NCBI RefSeq assembly: GCF_009905255.1 | Contig: NZ_CP047602.1 | Coordinates: 868,001-932,000, forward strand | DNA from: Thermoanaerobacterium aotearoense | Lineage (GTDB): Bacteria > Bacillota > Thermoanaerobacteria > Thermoanaerobacterales > Thermoanaerobacteraceae | Direction: 5' to 3' | DNA: 64,000 nucleotides | Shown: positions 4,980 to 39,345 of the stretch, piece after piece | Position numbering within the stretch: position 1 is the stretch's first letter | Layout of the letters: every line of letters starts with the position of its first letter | Position numbers and translations under genes: made by a program | Notes under the pieces: generated by a model | The model's database searches: none | What the model was told of the DNA's origin: nothing | What the model saw: the letters and a program-made list of their open reading frames with translations, nothing else

Positions 4980-5022
4980 TTTACATCTTATTAACAATTT
5001 GTACATATATTCATGATAATAT
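4980..5022 (+). promoter_or_regulatory. 11-bp-phased repeat promoter of the PIG-L gene
   Basis: TTTACA at 4980, TTAACA at 4991 and TACATA at 5002 are spaced 11 bp apart. A TAATAT -10 candidate at 5017 lies exactly 15 bp after the start of the last hexamer, the geometry also seen at 9164, 9301, 13089 and 30096. This is the signature of an OmpR-family response-regulator site overlapping the -35 region. The third hexamer is degenerate. Confidence 0.5.
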
Positions 5023-5073: not shown

Positions 5074-6483
5074 TTGAACAAGAAACTATTCAAATGGAAG
5101 TATATATTTATAACTTTTGGGCTAATCAGTGTCATTATTATAGCATCTATAATGAATTTAAAAACTACTTTTGCAAATCTCACAGAGAAAAAGCCTGTTC
5201 CAAATAACGACGATCCGGGACAAAGAATACTTGTAGTCGTACCACACCCTGATGATGAATCATTGGGAATGGCAGGTGTCATACAAAAAGCTATTGAATT
5301 GAAACGCCCCATAAAAGTGGTGATTGTAACAGATGGCGAAAGCTACAAAAAAGCTGCTCAAGTCTTTACAGGCCATATCAATCCTACACCAGCAGACTTT
5401 TATAAACTTGGACTTCAAAGGCACAGTGAAAGTTTAGCCGCAATGTCTGTATTAGGGCTTCCAAAGAATGACGTAATATTTTTAGGTTTTGCTGATGGCA
5501 GCACAAGATTTTTATGGAGCGATTTTTGGGATAATGGAAAACCCAGGATTAGCGGTGGAACAAATGTAGCATACTCTCCATATAAAGATGCGTACAAACC
5601 TGGTGTTGCATATACAGGTGAAAATTTAGAAAATGAGCTGCAAGATATCATGAAGTCATTTAAGCCTACAGATATTTACTATCCTTTAGCAGATGACGTA
5701 CATCCCGATCACTGGGCTGTAAGCAACTTTACAAGGTATGCAATAACAGCACTTAATCTAAACGTAAAAGAGCACATGTTTTTAGTTCACCATCCACAAT
5801 GGCCTGTACCATGGTTATTGATGCCAAATGATTCTCTTTTACCGCCAACAGACATGAAAGACAGCAACACTGTATGGCAAAGTATTCCTCTTTCAAAGCA
5901 AGAAGAAGCTAAAAAGGAAGAAGCCATTAAGCAGTATACATCGCAGATAAAAGTGATGGAGCCATTTTTATTGGCGTTTGTAAGGAAAAATGAGCTTTTC
6001 GGGACAAAGCCTGTCATTACGATTCCAGAAGTTGAAACGAAACCTAATTTATACGACAAAAACATGCCTTTCTCGCTTTTAAGCATACCAGCAGGTGGAA
6101 TTCTCGATCAGGAAATCTATAAAAGCGCTGATCTTACAAAGCTTGCTTCATTCTACTACGACAACCACTTGTATATAGGTGTTCAAACACTGTCACCTAT
6201 ATCTAAAAATGTACGATACAACATCGAAATGAGGCTGTTTTACAATAACAGCATAAAGAGGATCGATTTAGGATTGGTAAATGACAAGCTCTATCAGTAC
6301 AAAAAAGCCAATAATTCGCTTCTTAAATCTATAGCATCAAGACCAATAATAGACAAAAATATATTGTGGATAAAATTGAATATTCCACAAAAACAGGACT
6401 TGCGCTATATATTCATGGGTTCTGACTCAATATACAAAGGAAGACTAATCGATAAGATTCCTTGGAATTTGTACAAATTTTAG
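5074..6483 (+). CDS. Membrane-anchored PIG-L family (LmbE-like) deacetylase
   Basis: 469 residues. A single N-terminal transmembrane or signal-anchor helix (about 11-30) precedes a PIG-L deacetylase domain (about 50-290). Zinc and catalytic residues are visible as PHPDDE (H58, D60, D61, E62) and the distal DDVHPDH motif (H210, H213). PIG-L enzymes remove N-acetyl groups from GlcNAc-type substrates; an extracytoplasmic location suggests a cell-wall or surface-glycan substrate, which is inference. The C-terminal 150 residues are beta-rich (DNHLYIGVQTL...) and may be a carbohydrate-binding-like domain. The TTG start is preceded by GAGGGGG at proper spacing. It lies behind a phased-repeat promoter and beside a decayed polysaccharide deacetylase. 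Confidence 0.82.
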   Translation: MNKKLFKWKYIFITFGLISVIIIASIMNLKTTFANLTEKKPVPNNDDPGQRILVVVPHPDDESLGMAGVIQKAIELKRPIKVVIVTDGESYKKAAQVFTGHINPTPADFYKLGLQRHSESLAAMSVLGLPKNDVIFLGFADGSTRFLWSDFWDNGKPRISGGTNVAYSPYKDAYKPGVAYTGENLENELQDIMKSFKPTDIYYPLADDVHPDHWAVSNFTRYAITALNLNVKEHMFLVHHPQWPVPWLLMPNDSLLPPTDMKDSNTVWQSIPLSKQEEAKKEEAIKQYTSQIKVMEPFLLAFVRKNELFGTKPVITIPEVETKPNLYDKNMPFSLLSIPAGGILDQEIYKSADLTKLASFYYDNHLYIGVQTLSPISKNVRYNIEMRLFYNNSIKRIDLGLVNDKLYQYKKANNSLLKSIASRPIIDKNILWIKLNIPQKQDLRYIFMGSDSIYKGRLIDKIPWNLYKF

Positions 6484-8045: not shown

Positions 8046-9143
8046 ATGCTTGATAGAAAACTTATAAAAAATTTTGATTTTGTTTTATTTACATTAGCTA
8101 TTATAATATCAATTATAGGAGTAATTGTAATTACAAGCGCATCTCATGTTGCGGCAACAGGCTCTTTAAAACAGACTATAACCCAGTCGGTTTCAATAGT
8201 AATAGGTGTTATCGCTCTTTCGGTAATTACACTTTTTGACTACAACTTATTATCGAATTATTCTTTACAGCTTTATATCTTAAACATTTTATTATTAGTT
8301 TCTGTTTTTTTGATAGGCAAAGAGATCAATGGTGCTAAGACGTGGATTGTATTTGGTCCAATATCTTTGGAACCTGTCGAAATATCAAAAGTTTTTTTAA
8401 TAATTACGTTGGCTAGTTATTTAAAAGATAAAGATGAGATTACAAATTTTAAAGAATTAATTTATCCGCTTATTTTGGTGATTATACCTTCCATTATTGT
8501 TATATTGCAACATAGTCTTGGATCGGCACTGGTATTTATTATGATTTTTATTGGTATGATTTTTATATCTGGAATAAAGTTCAGAGTTTTTTCAGAATTA
8601 ATTGGTTCTAGTATAGCAATTATGCCAATAGTGTACAAGCTATTAAAACCATATCAGAGGAAAAGGCTTTTGTCATTTATAAATCCCAACCTTGATCCTT
8701 TAGGTGCTGGATATCATGTTATACAGTCGATTATATCTGTTGGATCAGGTATGTTTTGGGGCGAGGGATTATTCCATGGAACAGAGACACAATTGTTTTT
8801 TTTACCAGAGTCACAGACAGATTTTATTTTTTCAGCGTTAAGCGAAGAATTAGGATTTATTGGTTCAGCAACTTTGATTTTACTATATAGTTTGTTACTA
8901 TATAGAGCTTGGAAAATCGCATATAATGCTAAGGATAAGTTTGGAAGACTAATTTCGATTGGAATACTGTCAATGTTTGCATTTCATGTCTTTGAGAACA
9001 TTGGGATGGCAGTAGGTATAATGCCGATAGCAGGGATACCTTTACCATTTGTTAGTTATGGAGGAACTTCGCTGATTGTCAATATGATGTCAATAGGTTT
9101 GCTGATAAATATTGGCATGAGAAAAAATAAAATTAACTTTTGA
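8046..9143 (+). CDS. rodA: RodA/FtsW/SpoVE-family peptidoglycan polymerase
   Basis: 365 residues with ten predicted membrane helices. SEDS-family motifs are present: GAKTWIVFGPISLEPVEISK, PNLDPLGAGYH, FLPESQTDFIFSALSEELGFIG and the C-terminal GIPLPFVSYGGTSL. The FLPE...TDFIF motif is closest to RodA. SEDS proteins polymerise lipid II into glycan strands with a class B penicillin-binding protein; none is encoded nearby. The ATG has a TGAGGAG site. It probably forms an operon with the M23 peptidase. Confidence 0.85.
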   Translation: MLDRKLIKNFDFVLFTLAIIISIIGVIVITSASHVAATGSLKQTITQSVSIVIGVIALSVITLFDYNLLSNYSLQLYILNILLLVSVFLIGKEINGAKTWIVFGPISLEPVEISKVFLIITLASYLKDKDEITNFKELIYPLILVIIPSIIVILQHSLGSALVFIMIFIGMIFISGIKFRVFSELIGSSIAIMPIVYKLLKPYQRKRLLSFINPNLDPLGAGYHVIQSIISVGSGMFWGEGLFHGTETQLFFLPESQTDFIFSALSEELGFIGSATLILLYSLLLYRAWKIAYNAKDKFGRLISIGILSMFAFHVFENIGMAVGIMPIAGIPLPFVSYGGTSLIVNMMSIGLLINIGMRKNKINF

Positions 9144-9163: not shown

Positions 9164-9206
9164 TTTACACATTGTTCATAATTTTTTCATAAACAAAATA
9201 TATAAT
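9164..9206 (+). promoter_or_regulatory. 11-bp-phased repeat promoter of the candidate small RNA
   Basis: TTTACA (9164), TTCATA (9175) and TTCATA (9186) are spaced exactly 11 bp apart. TATAAT at 9201-9206 begins 15 bp after the start of the last hexamer. No protein gene begins before the intrinsic terminator at 9254-9285, so the promoter seems to make a short RNA. Confidence 0.65.
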
Positions 9207-9212
9207 TATACT

Positions 9213-9285
9213 TGAAAGTTAAAGCCTCTCCTTGACCTCCCTTATTAATAATAGCAGCCCAATTTTTTTCGGGCTGCATTTTACT
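9213..9285 (+). ncRNA. Candidate small RNA with two anti-Shine-Dalgarno tracts
   Basis: The start is inferred 7 bases after the -10 box at 9201-9206 and the end from the intrinsic terminator. The unpaired middle holds CCTCTCCTT (9225-9233) and CCTCCCTT (9236-9243), both complementary to Shine-Dalgarno sequences such as AAGGAG and AAGGGAGG. The 3' end is the GCAGCCC/GGGCTGC hairpin with a U-rich tail. No ORF with a ribosome site is present. This matches the layout of base-pairing sRNAs such as streptococcal csRNAs. An attenuated leader of the downstream efflux operon is the main alternative. Confidence 0.55.
9254..9285 (+). terminator. Intrinsic terminator of the candidate small RNA
   Basis: GCAGCCC at 9254-9260 pairs with GGGCTGC at 9271-9277 across an AATTTTTTTC loop, followed by ATTTTACTTTTTA. 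Confidence 0.85.
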
Positions 9286-9300
9286 TTTTAATATTATTTT

Positions 9301-9354
9301 CTTACAAAAAATTAACAAATTATTAAACAATTTTTTAAAACTAACGTGTATAAT
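9301..9354 (+). promoter_or_regulatory. 11-bp-phased repeat promoter of the MacAB-like operon
   Basis: CTTACA (9301), TTAACA (9312), TTAAAC (9323) and TTTAAA (9334) recur every 11 bp. TATAAT at 9349-9354 begins 15 bp after the start of the last hexamer. The transcript would start near 9361 and cover the adaptor gene at 9403. Confidence 0.6.
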
Positions 9355-9402: not shown

Positions 9403-11172
9403 ATGAAAAAGAAATACATTGCCATTATTCTTGCTTCAGTTTTAGTTGCTGGCAGTACAGCTTATTATTTTGCAAAAGTGAAAAATGCACAGAAGACATC
9501 AGGAGCTCCATACGCCACAGTGACAAGAGGAAATATAGTCATGCATATAGACGGTTCAGGAAATCTTGATGTGGATAAAAGGGTGATAACCTTAAAAGGC
9601 AATGGAACAGTGGCAAAAGTTTATCACAAAGTTGGCGATAAAGTAAAAGCTGGTGAGTTACTTTATCAAATAGAAGACGACAATTTAAATCAGCAGGTAC
9701 AAAATGCTCTTATAAGTGTGGAACTTGCTCAACAGCAGCTTGATAATGATACTAAAACATATAATAACACTGTATCAAATCAAAATATTGTATCGCCATA
9801 TTCAGGAATCGTTGATAGTGTAAATGTTTCAACAGGACAAAACGTCAATCCCGGAACAACTATAGCTACAATTGCCGATTATTCCAATGCGACTGTGAGA
9901 GTGCCGTTTAATGGTTCACAAATAAACGATATAAAAGTTGGTCAGACTGCGGATATATATTTATACGATTCTTTTGCTACAGTAACAGGTACTGTGACAG
10001 ATGTTTCAACGCAAGCAATACCTGTCAATGGTGCGCCGTATTACTATGTAACGGTAACATTACCAAATCCAGGTGCATTGACTGATGGAACTAAGGTGCA
10101 AGTGACAGTACATACAAGTGCTGGTGATGAAAGAGCAATTCAAGACGGGACACTAAACGTCAAAACAACTAATATAGTTTCGTCACAAATACAAGGAACT
10201 GTAGCAAGTGTCAATGTAAAACAGGGGCAGAAAGTCAATGCTGGTACAATATTAGCAACGTTGACAACTAATGTAGATGATACGGCGATAAAAAGAGATC
10301 AATTGAATCTGCAGCAGGCTCAAAACAATTACAATAATCTGCAGAGTCAGCTAAATAATTTAAGCATATATGCACCGATTGATGGTGTCATCATTTCACA
10401 AAATATAAATGAAGGCGATGAACTTGGTTCAAGTTCTTATAGTGCATCTGCAAGTAGTAACACAAGTTCAAATACAAACAGCGGTGCCAACTCCAACAGT
10501 AGTGGCAATGTTGCTGTAAGCAGCTTGTCATCATTGACAAGTCAAGCGGAGACAGCCGTAATCATTAATAATAGCAATTATTCGGTAGATGTGCCTATAG
10601 ACGAAACTGATATTAGTAAGATTAAAGTTGGACAAAAAGTCACATTGACGACAGACGATTTACCTGGAGAGACTTTTGATGGAACGGTTACGGAAATATC
10701 GTCTATTCCAACAATACAAAACAATGTGGCTTCTTATGATGTAACAGTATCACTGCCTTTTACAGACAAGTTGAAGTTAGGACAAACAATGAATGCTTCG
10801 ATAATAGTGGCAGAGAAGGATAATGCGCTTCTATTGCCAATTGAAGCAGTTCAAACTAATGGGAATAACAAATACGTCATATTGTACGATGAGAATAATT
10901 CTAATAATGGCGGTAGAAGAAGGAATATAAGGCAAGTCCAAACAGGCCTTTACAATGACAAATATATAGAGATAGTAAGTGGATTAAACGAAGGCGATAA
11001 AGTATTGATATTTGGTGCTGCAGCAACTTCATCAAATGGCAATAGCAATCGTACTGGTTTTGGCGGATTTGGCGGCGGCGGTAATTTTGGCAGTAGAAGC
11101 TTCGGCGGTGGAGCAGGAGGAGCTGGTTTTATAGTTAGACAACAATCTGGTGGGAATAGGAGTAGAAATTAG
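9403..11172 (+). CDS. HlyD/MacA-like efflux adaptor protein
   Basis: 589 residues. An N-terminal membrane anchor (about 5-24) precedes an adaptor fold of lipoyl/barrel-sandwich and helical-hairpin pieces. Two half-motifs resemble each other (VYHKVGDKVKAGELLYQIED and VNVKQGQKVNAGTILATL), so the lipoyl module looks duplicated. Beta-barrel and membrane-proximal parts follow (VGQKVTLTTDD, LPIEAVQTNGNNKYVILYD). Two Ser/Asn-rich linkers occur at about 345-385 and 500-512, and the last 50 residues are Gly-rich. Such adaptors couple MacB-type ABC pumps to export substrates or lipids. It is followed after 2 bp by the ATPase and then the permease. Its codon use differs from those two genes. Confidence 0.85.
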   Translation: MKKKYIAIILASVLVAGSTAYYFAKVKNAQKTSGAPYATVTRGNIVMHIDGSGNLDVDKRVITLKGNGTVAKVYHKVGDKVKAGELLYQIEDDNLNQQVQNALISVELAQQQLDNDTKTYNNTVSNQNIVSPYSGIVDSVNVSTGQNVNPGTTIATIADYSNATVRVPFNGSQINDIKVGQTADIYLYDSFATVTGTVTDVSTQAIPVNGAPYYYVTVTLPNPGALTDGTKVQVTVHTSAGDERAIQDGTLNVKTTNIVSSQIQGTVASVNVKQGQKVNAGTILATLTTNVDDTAIKRDQLNLQQAQNNYNNLQSQLNNLSIYAPIDGVIISQNINEGDELGSSSYSASASSNTSSNTNSGANSNSSGNVAVSSLSSLTSQAETAVIINNSNYSVDVPIDETDISKIKVGQKVTLTTDDLPGETFDGTVTEISSIPTIQNNVASYDVTVSLPFTDKLKLGQTMNASIIVAEKDNALLLPIEAVQTNGNNKYVILYDENNSNNGGRRRNIRQVQTGLYNDKYIEIVSGLNEGDKVLIFGAAATSSNGNSNRTGFGGFGGGGNFGSRSFGGGAGGAGFIVRQQSGGNRSRN

Positions 11173-11174
11173 CT

Positions 11175-11867
11175 ATGGAGAATAACGGCAAATTAAATAA
11201 AAATGTGATCACCATGAGAAACCTGTCAAAGATATACAAGATGGGAGACAACGAAGTAAGAGCTTTGGACAACATAAACTTAACCGTCGACGAAGGAGAA
11301 TTTGTATCAATAGTAGGACCATCAGGCTCAGGGAAATCCACACTGATGAATATAATAGGGTGTTTAGACGTAATGACAGAAGGAGAATACTATCTAAACG
11401 GAAACGACACAAGCAAGCTAAATGAAAACAAACTGGCTGAACTAAGATCCAGCGAAATAGGATTCATATTCCAAAGCTTCAACCTGCTTCAAAAACTTAC
11501 AGCATTAGAAAATGTAGAACTTCCAATGATATACAAAGGCATACCGGCAAAAGAAAGGTACAATAGAGCAGTAGAGCTCCTTACCATGGTAGGTCTGGAA
11601 AAAAGAATACACCATAAACCTACAGAACTATCAGGAGGACAGCAGCAGAGAGTAGCAATAGCAAGAGCCTTAGCCAACAATCCGCATCTTATACTGGCAG
11701 ACGAACCAACAGGAAACTTAGACTCCCAAAGCGGCAAAGAAGTCATGAAAATAATAAAAGAATTAAACGAAAGAGGCAACACCATAATACTCATAACCCA
11801 CGACATAAACGTAGCAAACCAAGCAAAAAGGACTGTAAAAATAATGGACGGCAAAATATATGAATAA
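11175..11867 (+). CDS. MacB-type ABC transporter ATP-binding protein
   Basis: 230 residues, the standard length for LolD/MacB/YknY ATPases. Walker A is GPSGSGKST (about 45), the Q-loop lies in FIFQSFNLL, the signature is LSGGQQQR, Walker B is LILADEPTGNLDS and the switch His is in LITHD. It powers the downstream FtsX/MacB permease. Codon use is striking: Ile is nearly always ATA and AAC is favoured for Asn, unlike flanking genes; this produces long spurious open frames on the opposite strand. Immediate spacing indicates translational coupling with the adaptor. Confidence 0.92.
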   Translation: MENNGKLNKNVITMRNLSKIYKMGDNEVRALDNINLTVDEGEFVSIVGPSGSGKSTLMNIIGCLDVMTEGEYYLNGNDTSKLNENKLAELRSSEIGFIFQSFNLLQKLTALENVELPMIYKGIPAKERYNRAVELLTMVGLEKRIHHKPTELSGGQQQRVAIARALANNPHLILADEPTGNLDSQSGKEVMKIIKELNERGNTIILITHDINVANQAKRTVKIMDGKIYE

Positions 11868-11873
11868 AAGGAA

Positions 11874-13055
11874 GTGCGTAAAATGGCATTGATGCAGGCA
11901 ATAAAAATGTCCTTAAAAAGCATAATAGACAACAAACTAAGATCATTTCTAACCATGCTTGGAATAGTAATAGGCGTAATGTCAGTAATAGGACTGGTAA
12001 GCTTAGGACAAGGAGCCACAGAAGGAGTAACATCGCAGATAAAAAGCATGGGTTCAAACCTAATAATGGTATCAATAATGGGCAGGGGTATGGACACATC
12101 CCTGTCCTACAGCCAAGCCATGTCAATAGGAGACTCACCGTACATATCGCAAATATCCCCAATAATGAGTGCCAACGCATATGCCAAGTACGGTGACCAA
12201 TCATACGAAGAAAACATAAGCGGAGTAAACGAAAACTATGCCACACTGAGAAATTTAAAATTAAGAGAAGGTAGGTTCATACTATCAATAGACAATGACA
12301 TGAGGCAAAAAGTAGCAGTAATAGGCAGTAACGTAGCCAGCGATTTGTTTGGATTCACAGATCCCTTAGGCAAAACAATACAACTGGATGGAAACAACTT
12401 CACAGTAGTAGGAGTATTAGCATCAGGAGGCTCATCAATATCAAACTCCTATGACGACTCGATATTCATCCCGATAAAGACGATGTTCGTATTCCAGCGA
12501 AACAGAGGAATAACTCAGATATACCTAAGCGCATCATCAGAACAATACGTAAACATAGCACAATACCATGTAGAAAACATGCTAAACACAATATTCAAAG
12601 GTGACACAAACGCATATAGAATATTAAACCAATCAGACCTATTATCAACAGTAAACAGCGTCAGCAACACACTGTCCATGATGCTGGGCGGAATAGCAGG
12701 CATAGCATTAATAGTAGGCGGCATAGGCATAATGAACATAATGTTGGTATCAGTCACAGAGAGGACGAGAGAAATAGGCATAAGAAAAGCATTAGGAGCT
12801 AAGAAAAGGGACATACTGCTGCAGTTCATGATAGAATCGCTGACCATAAGCGGAGTAGGAGGGATAGTAGGAGTAATCTTTGGATTTATAGCATCGTATC
12901 TGATGGGACACTTTATGAACATGACGGTAAGCCCATCAATAAACACGATATTAATATCATTCTCATTTTCCCTCTTAATAGGCTTATTCTTTGGCATGTA
13001 TCCTGCAAACAAGGCAGCGGGGCTTAAACCGATTGAAGCTTTGCGGTATGAGTAA
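11874..13055 (+). CDS. MacB/YknZ-type ABC transporter permease
   Basis: 393 residues with MacB topology: helix 1 (about 18-40), a MacB periplasmic core-like extracellular domain (about 45-265) and three C-terminal helices (FtsX domain). Motifs RSFLTMLGIVIGVMSVIG, GIGIMNIMLVSVTERTREIGIRKALGA and KAAGLKPIEALRYE are highly characteristic. With the adaptor and ATPase it forms a tripartite-like Gram-positive pump, like Bacillus YknXYZ, which protects against an envelope toxin. The substrate is not predictable here. The ATA/AAC-rich codon use persists to about 12,950 and then relaxes. Confidence 0.92.
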   Translation: MRKMALMQAIKMSLKSIIDNKLRSFLTMLGIVIGVMSVIGLVSLGQGATEGVTSQIKSMGSNLIMVSIMGRGMDTSLSYSQAMSIGDSPYISQISPIMSANAYAKYGDQSYEENISGVNENYATLRNLKLREGRFILSIDNDMRQKVAVIGSNVASDLFGFTDPLGKTIQLDGNNFTVVGVLASGGSSISNSYDDSIFIPIKTMFVFQRNRGITQIYLSASSEQYVNIAQYHVENMLNTIFKGDTNAYRILNQSDLLSTVNSVSNTLSMMLGGIAGIALIVGGIGIMNIMLVSVTERTREIGIRKALGAKKRDILLQFMIESLTISGVGGIVGVIFGFIASYLMGHFMNMTVSPSINTILISFSFSLLIGLFFGMYPANKAAGLKPIEALRYE

Positions 13056-13088: not shown

Positions 13089-13131
13089 TATACACTTATT
13101 TAACAGTTTGTTAAAAATTTTGGGCTATAAT
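13089..13131 (+). promoter_or_regulatory. 11-bp-phased repeat promoter of the secreted helical protein
   Basis: TATACA (13089), TTAACA (13100) and TTAAAA (13111) are spaced 11 bp apart, and TATAAT at 13126-13131 starts 15 bp after the last. The geometry is identical to the promoters at 9164, 9301 and 30096. Confidence 0.6.
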
Positions 13132-13163: not shown

Positions 13164-13823
13164 ATGACAGGGAAAAGCAAAAAAATCATAGCGACTGCTG
13201 TCATAAGTACGGTTCTTTTGACATCAATAGCTTTTGCTGATACGTCAACATCATCTTCACAGGCTAATTCAAATGCCTCAACAAGCCAAACAGTTAAGAC
13301 AAACAAAAAGTTTGACCCGATACAAACTTTAGAAAATCTTAAGACAAAAATTGAAGAAAAGTATAGCCAAGGCAAAATAAGCCAAGATCAAGAAAATAGT
13401 ATTCTGACAAAAATAAATAATGCTGAACAAAAAATACAAGCTTTTAATAATATGACGTTAGATCAAAAAAAGCAAACACTGATTGATGATTTTACAAATA
13501 TCGTTAATAATCAAGTAAAGAATGGCAAGATTACACAAGACAAAGCTAATACTCTTATTAAGAATTTTACAGATAAAGTCAATAAATGGGATGGAAATGG
13601 CTATCCGCAATTCGTTGTGCGCTATTTGAAGAAGTACATGGGTGTAGTACACGAAAAATTTAGTCCTATGGGAAGATTTAAAAAAGTGCTTGATGAAGCA
13701 GTTAAGAAGAATCAAATAACGTCGACACAGGAACAGGAAATACTTAATGAGTTAAAAGGAAGTAAAACAAATACTTCTAAAAGCACAACGACAGTAAATT
13801 CAGATGTTTCTAACACATTATGA
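13164..13823 (+). CDS. Secreted helical-repeat protein (DUF2680-like motif)
   Basis: 219 residues. A signal peptide (1-25, ending SIAFA-DT) and a Ser/Thr/Asn linker (26-50) lead to three similar helical-hairpin units with the pattern GKIS/GKIT/NQIT followed by Gln/Asp-rich helices (about 70, 128 and 190). The second unit (VKNGKITQDKANTL...NKWDG) aligns by eye with the secreted protein at 23712-24224 (VKNGVITEERAAEL...NACDG). No enzyme motif or Cys is seen. It sits directly after the MacB-like permease but has its own phased-repeat promoter and a TAAGGAGG ribosome site. Function unknown; an extracytoplasmic stress or chaperone-like role is only inference. Confidence 0.7.
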   Translation: MTGKSKKIIATAVISTVLLTSIAFADTSTSSSQANSNASTSQTVKTNKKFDPIQTLENLKTKIEEKYSQGKISQDQENSILTKINNAEQKIQAFNNMTLDQKKQTLIDDFTNIVNNQVKNGKITQDKANTLIKNFTDKVNKWDGNGYPQFVVRYLKKYMGVVHEKFSPMGRFKKVLDEAVKKNQITSTQEQEILNELKGSKTNTSKSTTTVNSDVSNTL

Positions 13824-30095: not shown

Positions 30096-30138
30096 TTTAC
30101 AAAGTATTCACAAATTCTTAAAAAATGTTATTTATAAT
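30096..30138 (+). promoter_or_regulatory. 11-bp-phased repeat promoter of htrA
   Basis: TTTACA (30096), TTCACA (30107) and TTAAAA (30118) are spaced 11 bp apart, with TATAAT at 30133-30138, 15 bp after the start of the last. This is the cleanest example of the motif set. Confidence 0.7.
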
Positions 30139-30177: not shown

Positions 30178-31404
30178 ATGGAATTCAACAATGGTTTTGA
30201 AAATTACAGGCTTCCTGACGTTAATCCAAAAAATGATAAGAAAAGTTTAGGCAAGATGGTTAAAAGATATAGAAGAAAAATGTTTATGTCATTTGTCGCT
30301 GTGGCACTTGTTGCTGCATTGGCTGGTGGTGCCTTAGGAGCGGGAATTGTCAAATACGCTGATACAGGCAATACTCAGGTTGTGAATAGGTATTTGCCGC
30401 TTTCATCTGATAACAACAATTTTAACTTGATTACAAACATTGTGAAGGCCGTAAGCCCATCGGTTGTCGGAATAGATACATATATTAGTGGTTATGGGGC
30501 TTATGGATACGGTGGCAATTCTTACGTTGAGGAAGGAAGCGGCTCTGGAATAATCATAGATTCGGAAGGCCACATTGTCACAAATGATCATGTTGTGGAA
30601 GGTGCATCAAAGATAACCGTAAACTTGTCTGACGGAAGGAAATTTCCTGCACAATTGGTAGGAAAGGATTCAAGGACTGATCTTGCGGTTTTAAAGATAA
30701 ATGCCACAAATTTGACACCTGCAAAATTAGGAGATTCATCAAAGCTTGAAGTAGGAGAATTAGCAGTAGCTATAGGAAATCCATTGGGTGATAGCTTTGC
30801 TGGAACTGCAACAGCAGGTATCATAAGCGGTTTAAATCGAAATTTGCAAAGTGATTATGGCCCAGTAAATCTAATACAGACAGATGCCGCAATAAATCCA
30901 GGAAACAGTGGAGGACCTCTTGTAAATAGCGTCGGCGAAGTGATAGGAATAACAAGCATAAAGCTTACATCAACTGGTGGTTCAAGTTCTGGAGATCCTT
31001 TTGGGCTATTTCAAAGCCAAAGTGTGCCGCTTGAAGGAATGGGCTTTGCGATACCTATAAACGAGGCAAAACCTATAATTGAAGAGCTTATTCGAAAGGG
31101 ATATGTGGAAAGACCTGTTATAGGTGTAAGCGTGCAGCAGATAACACAGCAGCAAGCAAATCAATACAATATACCAGTAGGACTTTATATTGCACAAGTG
31201 CAGCAAGGAAGTGGTGCTGATGCTGCAGGTCTTCAAGCAGGTGATATAATAACTGCTGTAGATGGGACTAACGTAACAACATTTAATCAACTTGAAAATA
31301 TTTTAAACAATCATAAAATAGGAGATGTAATAAGCGTAACAGTTTGGAGAAATGGTCAAACACTTACAGTTAATGTAAAACTTTCAGGCTCGAATGGGCA
31401 ATGA
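30178..31404 (+). CDS. htrA: HtrA/DegP-like membrane-anchored serine protease
   Basis: 408 residues from ATG 30178 (GAGGAGG 8 bases upstream). A cytoplasmic N-tail and one membrane helix (about 38-60) precede a trypsin-like domain (about 100-295) with catalytic H138 (TNDHV), D168 (RTDLA) and S244 (GNSGGP), and a PDZ domain (about 310-400). It degrades or refolds misfolded extracytoplasmic proteins. Gram-positive HtrA genes are classic targets of CssRS or CiaRH systems; this one has the phased-repeat promoter. Terminator follows. Confidence 0.93.
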   Translation: MEFNNGFENYRLPDVNPKNDKKSLGKMVKRYRRKMFMSFVAVALVAALAGGALGAGIVKYADTGNTQVVNRYLPLSSDNNNFNLITNIVKAVSPSVVGIDTYISGYGAYGYGGNSYVEEGSGSGIIIDSEGHIVTNDHVVEGASKITVNLSDGRKFPAQLVGKDSRTDLAVLKINATNLTPAKLGDSSKLEVGELAVAIGNPLGDSFAGTATAGIISGLNRNLQSDYGPVNLIQTDAAINPGNSGGPLVNSVGEVIGITSIKLTSTGGSSSGDPFGLFQSQSVPLEGMGFAIPINEAKPIIEELIRKGYVERPVIGVSVQQITQQQANQYNIPVGLYIAQVQQGSGADAAGLQAGDIITAVDGTNVTTFNQLENILNNHKIGDVISVTVWRNGQTLTVNVKLSGSNGQ

Positions 31405-39129: not shown

Positions 39130-39171
39130 GAAAGCAAAAAAGGAATATGAAGACAAGTGTCATCATATTCC
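39130..39171 (-). terminator. Riboswitch expression-platform terminator
   Basis: On the minus strand GGAATATGA pairs with TCATATTCC (plus coordinates 39142-39150 and 39163-39171), then TTTTTTGC. It lies between the glycine aptamers and gcvT, so it is probably the regulated terminator. Confidence 0.8.
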
Positions 39172-39179
39172 TCTGTATC

Positions 39180-39345
39180 ATGACCTGAGAGTTTCTACCA
39201 AAAGGTATTGCCCCATCGGTGCCATACGGCTTTCCAGAGTCCCATCAAATAGCGATTAATTTGCCTGAGAGATTTTATGAAGCCGTGACCCACTTCATAT
39301 TGCTCCTTCGGCCACCTTAAAAGGTGTCTCTCGCTATCCTCATTT
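39180..39345 (-). ncRNA. Tandem glycine riboswitch
   Basis: Read on the minus strand, aptamer 1 has AGCGAGAGACACC, GGTGGCCGAAGGAGCAA and TCTCTCAGGC; aptamer 2 has GGGACTCTGGAAAGCC, GCACCGATGGGGCAA and AACTCTCAGGTCA. These are the two glycine aptamers with their short linker. Followed by a terminator, this is a typical glycine-ON switch that turns on gcvT-H-PA-PB when glycine is abundant. Confidence 0.92.

Follow-up and report, generated by a model that had tools for sequence, protein, structure and literature searches.

In Thermoanaerobacterium aotearoense, the window (the whole stretch of 64,000 nucleotides that was analysed) contains a promoter, two CU-rich tracts and an intrinsic terminator (Table 1) between an FtsW/RodA-type gene (8046-9143) on one side and a gene for a MacA-like adaptor (9403-11172) on the other. 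No open reading frame of at least 70 amino acids was found to start between 9143 and 9403. The initial annotation of this DNA had described a promoter without a gene behind it, two anti-Shine-Dalgarno tracts and a terminator ending the unit at about 9285, and these three elements are indeed present, the tracts CCTCTCCTT and CCTCCCTT exactly where they had been placed.

Direct reading of the sequence gives the promoter layout TTTACA-N5-TTCATA-N5-TTCATA-N9-TATAAT, with three repeats at a spacing of 11 bp and without a -35 consensus, and it is predicted to be an activated promoter of the OmpR/PhoB type. It possesses no mismatch to the box shared by the family and scores 52 bits in a matrix of family promoters that includes this promoter itself, compared to a highest score of 12.4 bits in simulated 64-kb sequences. 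The same element precedes the other copies of the RNA. The terminator hairpin was listed on the minus strand only, because its plus-strand loop of 10 nucleotides exceeds the loop limit of 8 of the hairpin finder; the plus-strand terminator is supported by T-rich tails on the RNA strand in other copies and by two-sided changes at five of the ten consensus stem pairs.

Table 1. Positions in the window of the parts of the small-RNA unit and of sites resembling its promoter box
Feature	Position	Strand	Details and basis
Promoter	9164-9206	+	half sites TTTACA 9164-9169, TTCATA 9175-9180 and TTCATA 9186-9191; -10 TATAAT 9201-9206
Small RNA (predicted)	9213-9289	+	start 9213-9214, end 9285-9289; length about 72-76 nt; from -10 distance, conservation and terminator
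5' arm	9214-9231	+	GAAAG 9214-9218 opposite CTCTC 9226-9230; an A-C mismatch breaks the hairpin here
Anti-Shine-Dalgarno tract 1, CCTCTCCTT	9225-9233	+	CTCTCC invariant across all aligned copies
Anti-Shine-Dalgarno tract 2, CCTCCCTT	9236-9243	+	mostly unpaired among the copies at 37-70 C (fold model)
Conserved core CTCTCC[CT]TGACCTCCC, proposed pairing seed	9226-9241	+	invariant save one C/T position
Intrinsic terminator	9254-9289	+	7-bp stem 9254-9260/9271-9277; T-rich tail ATTTTACTTTTT 9278-9289; from fold and covariation
Box before second htrA gene (30178-31404)	30096-30138	+	3 mismatches; pattern and matrix scan
Box before gene for 219-aa protein (13164-13823), downstream of the efflux operon	13089-13131	+	3 mismatches; pattern and matrix scan
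Box-like site before PIG-L deacetylase gene (5074-6483)	4980-5022	+	20.7 bits; matrix scan of the window
Weak box-like site before MacA/MacB-like efflux operon (9403-13055)	9312-9354	+	10.2 bits

Conservation of the RNA and its ancestral locus

A DNA search of relatives gave matches in each of the 20 family genomes. The core CTCTCC[CT]TGACCTCC, searched as CTCTCCNTGACCTCC, occurs 26 times in these 20 genomes (three genera) and in none of 17 other genomes of the class, and the reversed core pattern, used as a control on the same genome set, gave no match. Since only one C/T position of the core varies over 26 copies in three genera and the reversed control remains empty, its conservation exceeds chance. 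An alignment of 22 sequences confirms this picture: promoter, core and terminator are all conserved across the family, whereas drift is seen in the loop, in the linker that follows it and in the terminator loop. The C/U tracts to which the initial annotation had drawn attention are thus the most conserved part of the RNA in all 20 genomes, and the lack of tract conservation that it had named as a refuting outcome is not what was observed. A covariance model run against 299 genomes of the phylum returned strong matches throughout the family and none that convinced outside it; the five weak ones found there (L223-L227; E 5e-4 to 9e-3) miss an intact core and look like chance. Rfam gave no match on the region at the gathering threshold, and under relaxed settings (Rfam 15) the best sub-threshold match had an E-value of 0.91 and 20.4 bits, against 51.4 required. 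Neither a phage nor a plasmid origin was indicated: viral contigs held no exact match, and plasmid matches span only 29-33 nt and are promoter-like. No earlier description of the RNA in Thermoanaerobacter or Thermoanaerobacterium was found in Rfam or in the open-access literature, to which the search was confined (subscription journals were outside its scope). Taken together, this part of the window very probably codes for a regulatory RNA of about 75 bases that has no earlier description and is kept in 20 of 20 related thermophiles. It would be a new, family-wide conserved small RNA in thermophilic anaerobes used for biofuel, for which no such regulator was found described.

The dense repeats of a DNA-binding type and a TTG within the core could also suggest a DNA-level element or a very small protein-coding gene instead of an RNA gene. 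However, the terminator stem covaries, there is no ribosome-binding site, the TTG is changed to CTG in two copies, and a 4-nt difference in linker length between copies breaks the frame. A peptide was rejected on account of frame and start codon, and we consider this explanation as a whole very improbable.

Genomes of the family carry one to three copies of the RNA, the own genome having a second one at 2469818-2469921. In 20 of 20 family genomes, the ancestral copy has a histidine-kinase gene on one side and htrA on the other; in 19 of them the core follows the end of the kinase match at a distance of 80-100 bp, and the HtrA match starts 130-200 bp downstream of the core. Seen more widely, the locus reads glmU-like, prs-like, response regulator, kinase, RNA, htrA and pth-like, the flanking genes being named by sequence resemblance. 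The regulator consists of a receiver and a Trans_reg_C domain, the kinase of HAMP, HisKA and HATPase domains, and HtrA is a trypsin-PDZ protease; among its best 25 NCBIfam matches, this OmpR-type regulator reached no equivalog cut-off. In another family of the same class (f4), whose genomes appear to be Caldicellulosiruptor-like, the order response regulator, kinase, htrA recurs with a phased box directly before htrA, the RNA is absent between kinase and htrA, and the core is absent genome-wide.

The window copy arose later, as a duplicate of the copy between kinase and htrA. Of the nine genomes in the window's genus, four have a copy of this type, in each case before the efflux operon. Genome G004 has two extra copies at an unrelated place which keep promoter and terminator; one is followed by an unrelated gene of 223 aa, the other by no same-direction open reading frame of at least 90 aa for about 1.3 kb. 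A second efflux-adaptor paralogue of the own genome (G000:C1:224180-225886, L417), 69% identical, has neither box nor small RNA upstream.

These arrangements bear on the possibility that the RNA is a cis-acting leader, in which conditional read-through of the terminator controls, for the window copy, the efflux operon or, for the ancestral copy, htrA. Both copies do lie upstream of a same-direction gene starting 110-200 bp further on. However, htrA possesses its own box promoter past the terminator, and orthologues of the efflux operon lack the core upstream in four further genomes of the window's genus and in seven sister-genus genomes. Conversely, the RNA occurs without the efflux operon, its copies preceding different genes, including the unrelated 223-aa gene in G004. 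Moreover, the terminator is the sole consensus structure and an alternative anti-terminator fold is not seen in the consensus fold; the RNA family shows neither the constant downstream gene nor the alternative conserved fold expected of an attenuator or riboswitch. With efflux orthologues lacking the RNA and the RNA occurring without the operon, the attenuated efflux leader which had initially been kept as an option is improbable, and the cis-acting explanation as a whole, htrA included, is given little credit.

Masked and open tracts

In most copies at the htrA locus, the predicted fold consists of a 5' hairpin in which GAGAG pairs with CUCUC and thereby occupies tract 1 (CUCUCC), followed by an open tract 2 and the terminator. 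GAAAG replaces GAGAG in all four copies at the efflux locus and in one htrA-locus copy (G019), by which the hairpin is lost and both tracts are open. The single-stranded state that had been attributed to the tracts therefore holds for the window copy but not for nearly all htrA-locus copies, where tract 1 is paired. In the energy model, the 5' hairpin is marginal at 60-70 C, and a temperature sensitivity of this hairpin is conceivable. The window duplicate, having no 5' mask, would offer both tracts simultaneously.

A shared box and comparison with known systems

Allowing up to three mismatches, the full box occurs at eight sites of the own genome versus one for the reversed pattern, and the sites without any mismatch are those of its two RNA copies. 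The htrA gene adjoining the kinase is also preceded by the box, which is placed after the RNA terminator as a promoter of its own. This genome also has a second gene for an htrA-type protease, preceded by the phased box just as the small RNA is. The box further precedes the gene for the 219-aa protein, which has a signal-peptide-like N-terminus, and an ABC transporter operon (2049895). Two other box-like matches of the own genome (L213 and L216) have no evident link to envelope stress and are probably due to chance. Co-regulation of the efflux operon is unproven, since its box at 9312 scores at chance level, with 10.2 bits versus null maxima of 12.4 and 10.1. The combination of an OmpR-type regulator, a short RNA with anti-Shine-Dalgarno tracts and a co-regulated htrA, as initially proposed, gains strong genomic support from the location of the RNA between the regulator/kinase pair and htrA and from the box before both htrA genes.

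A comparable logic is known from the csRNAs of the streptococcal CiaRH regulon, whose promoters carry NTTAAG-N5-TTTAAG about 10 bp before TATAAT (PMC3091779). These csRNAs are intergenic and terminator-ended, measure 51-202 nt, consist of a hairpin, an unpaired anti-Shine-Dalgarno region and a terminator, and contain a CAU anti-start-codon motif in 53 of 61 cases (PMC3091779, PMC4507080, PMC8317062). The RNA described here resembles them in being a short intergenic, terminator-ended RNA (about 72-76 nt) behind a predicted OmpR-type-activated promoter built of hexamer-N5-hexamer and, some 10 bp on, TATAAT, its N9 to the -10 being comparable. It also resembles them in having more than one copy, in sharing its putative regulon with htrA and, in nearly all ancestral-type copies, in an unpaired anti-Shine-Dalgarno stretch between 5' hairpin and terminator; the window copy lacks the 5' hairpin. 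It differs in its box (three repeats, TTTACA/TTCATA/TTCATA, against TTTAAG-N5-TTTAAG), in its core, in its constant place between kinase gene and htrA, in its thermophilic anaerobic hosts and in having no Rfam match. CAU is absent from the unpaired middle in the window's genus, and UUAUCAUAG is found only in most sister-genus copies. The csRNA parallel that had been drawn from the window thus stands as a functional analogy, and not as membership of the family, against which box, CAU and Rfam all speak. The five LhrC RNAs of Listeria (LhrC1-5) are controlled by LisRK, a two-component system that responds to cell-envelope stress, and carry three redundant CU-rich sites through which they bind an mRNA and block it (PMC4132741). 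Similarly, the present RNA is multicopy with putatively redundant CU-rich sites and a predicted two-component control, whereas it has two tracts and one to three copies, and no sequence relation is detectable (no Rfam match).

Predicted mode of action and candidate target

The computation shows how far the RNA is conserved, how many copies exist and where they lie, how promoter and terminator are built and which genes share the box; that the RNA is transcribed, which regulator acts on it, that it pairs and in which direction it regulates are inferred. With a probability of roughly three in four, it belongs to an envelope-stress regulon as a trans-acting small RNA that is activated together with HtrA and keeps translation from starting by pairing with Shine-Dalgarno sequences. 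Upon envelope stress, a phosphorylated response regulator of the OmpR/PhoB type, most probably the one whose gene neighbours the ancestral copy, would bind the 11-bp-phased repeats and jointly activate the RNA and HtrA. The RNA would end at its own terminator, and its core CUCUCC-UUGA-CCUCCC would base-pair with the Shine-Dalgarno regions of selected mRNAs, by which the initiation of translation would be blocked. Most likely, the RNA is thus predicted to turn off protein synthesis from chosen messages. Against this explanation count the hidden tract 1 in ancestral copies, the lack of a clear enrichment among start regions, the uneven pairing of the target lead across genomes and good pairing with the regulator's own start region in only some of them.

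As to enrichment, start regions with a perfect complement of either tract were not clearly enriched over reversed-pattern controls. Exact tract-complement matches were discarded as targets, many being ordinary Shine-Dalgarno sequences, e.g. of gpmI-like and atpE-like genes. An 18-mer complement with up to three mismatches mostly gave non-self matches inside open reading frames among those examined, the exceptions including a small membrane protein. Patterns spanning the linker yielded no further convincing conserved target.

A core that resembles an anti-Shine-Dalgarno sequence, without clearly enriched specific start-region matches, might instead belong to a sponge that binds a purine-rich small RNA, or to a general brake on ribosome binding that is not mRNA-specific. 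However, the UUGA linker, which is not anti-Shine-Dalgarno, is conserved as well, suggesting more specific partners, and a complementary small RNA was not identified. We hold such a role to be unlikely.

For the trans-acting RNA pairing with selected mRNAs, the best target lead is a candidate membrane protein of 45-53 aa (MEKY...), encoded in 20 of 20 family genomes (L328 1501-1635, orthologues L313-L332); a start region of its gene reads AAGGGAGAGGTCAATGATG. In the contexts examined, its gene is flanked by one for a conserved 372-aa protein, presumably DUF362-like, and by a laccase-domain-like gene which we take to be pgeF-like. Start-region pairing reaches -23.5 to -25.7 kcal/mol with both tracts in six sister-genus genomes, and -21.1 to -24.1 kcal/mol with a purine-rich start region in three others. 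As this protein surfaced by searching near-complements of the whole core, only the value in the window's own genus is an independent test; there, the start region has a different arrangement, AAGGGAGAGGTCAAtgATG, which pairs with tract 2 and the linker at -22.3 kcal/mol in seven of the nine genomes, the other two giving -22.7 and -19.3. That energy is matched by two of 132 start regions from unselected loci of the genus, and 1.35% of shuffled cores equal the duplex. The third genus, represented by one genome, does not show the pairing (-8.7 kcal/mol), and in G014 it is weaker (-16.8 kcal/mol). Feedback on the mRNA of the regulator was rejected: good start-region pairing exists in some genomes only, and 21-38% of shuffled cores equal it (G000, G009). 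As a separate observation, G012 contains GAGGTCAAATAATCATG in dozens of places and G015 in about a dozen, which hints at a multicopy mobile element.

The family supplies a 16-nt seed, a regulon box and a named target candidate, and it suggests that the wiring of an envelope-stress two-component system to HtrA and an anti-Shine-Dalgarno RNA has more than one origin among the Firmicutes. It is possible, although we put this forward only tentatively, that the system is a convergent, independent counterpart of the streptococcal CiaRH/csRNA/HtrA circuit, hard-wired as regulator, kinase, small RNA and htrA at a single locus, and that unmasked duplicates with both tracts open represent a second form, the masked and open forms, perhaps temperature-dependent, having different targets. 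Elsewhere in the window, tandem glycine riboswitch aptamers at 39171-39343 on the minus strand gave two Rfam matches above the gathering score.
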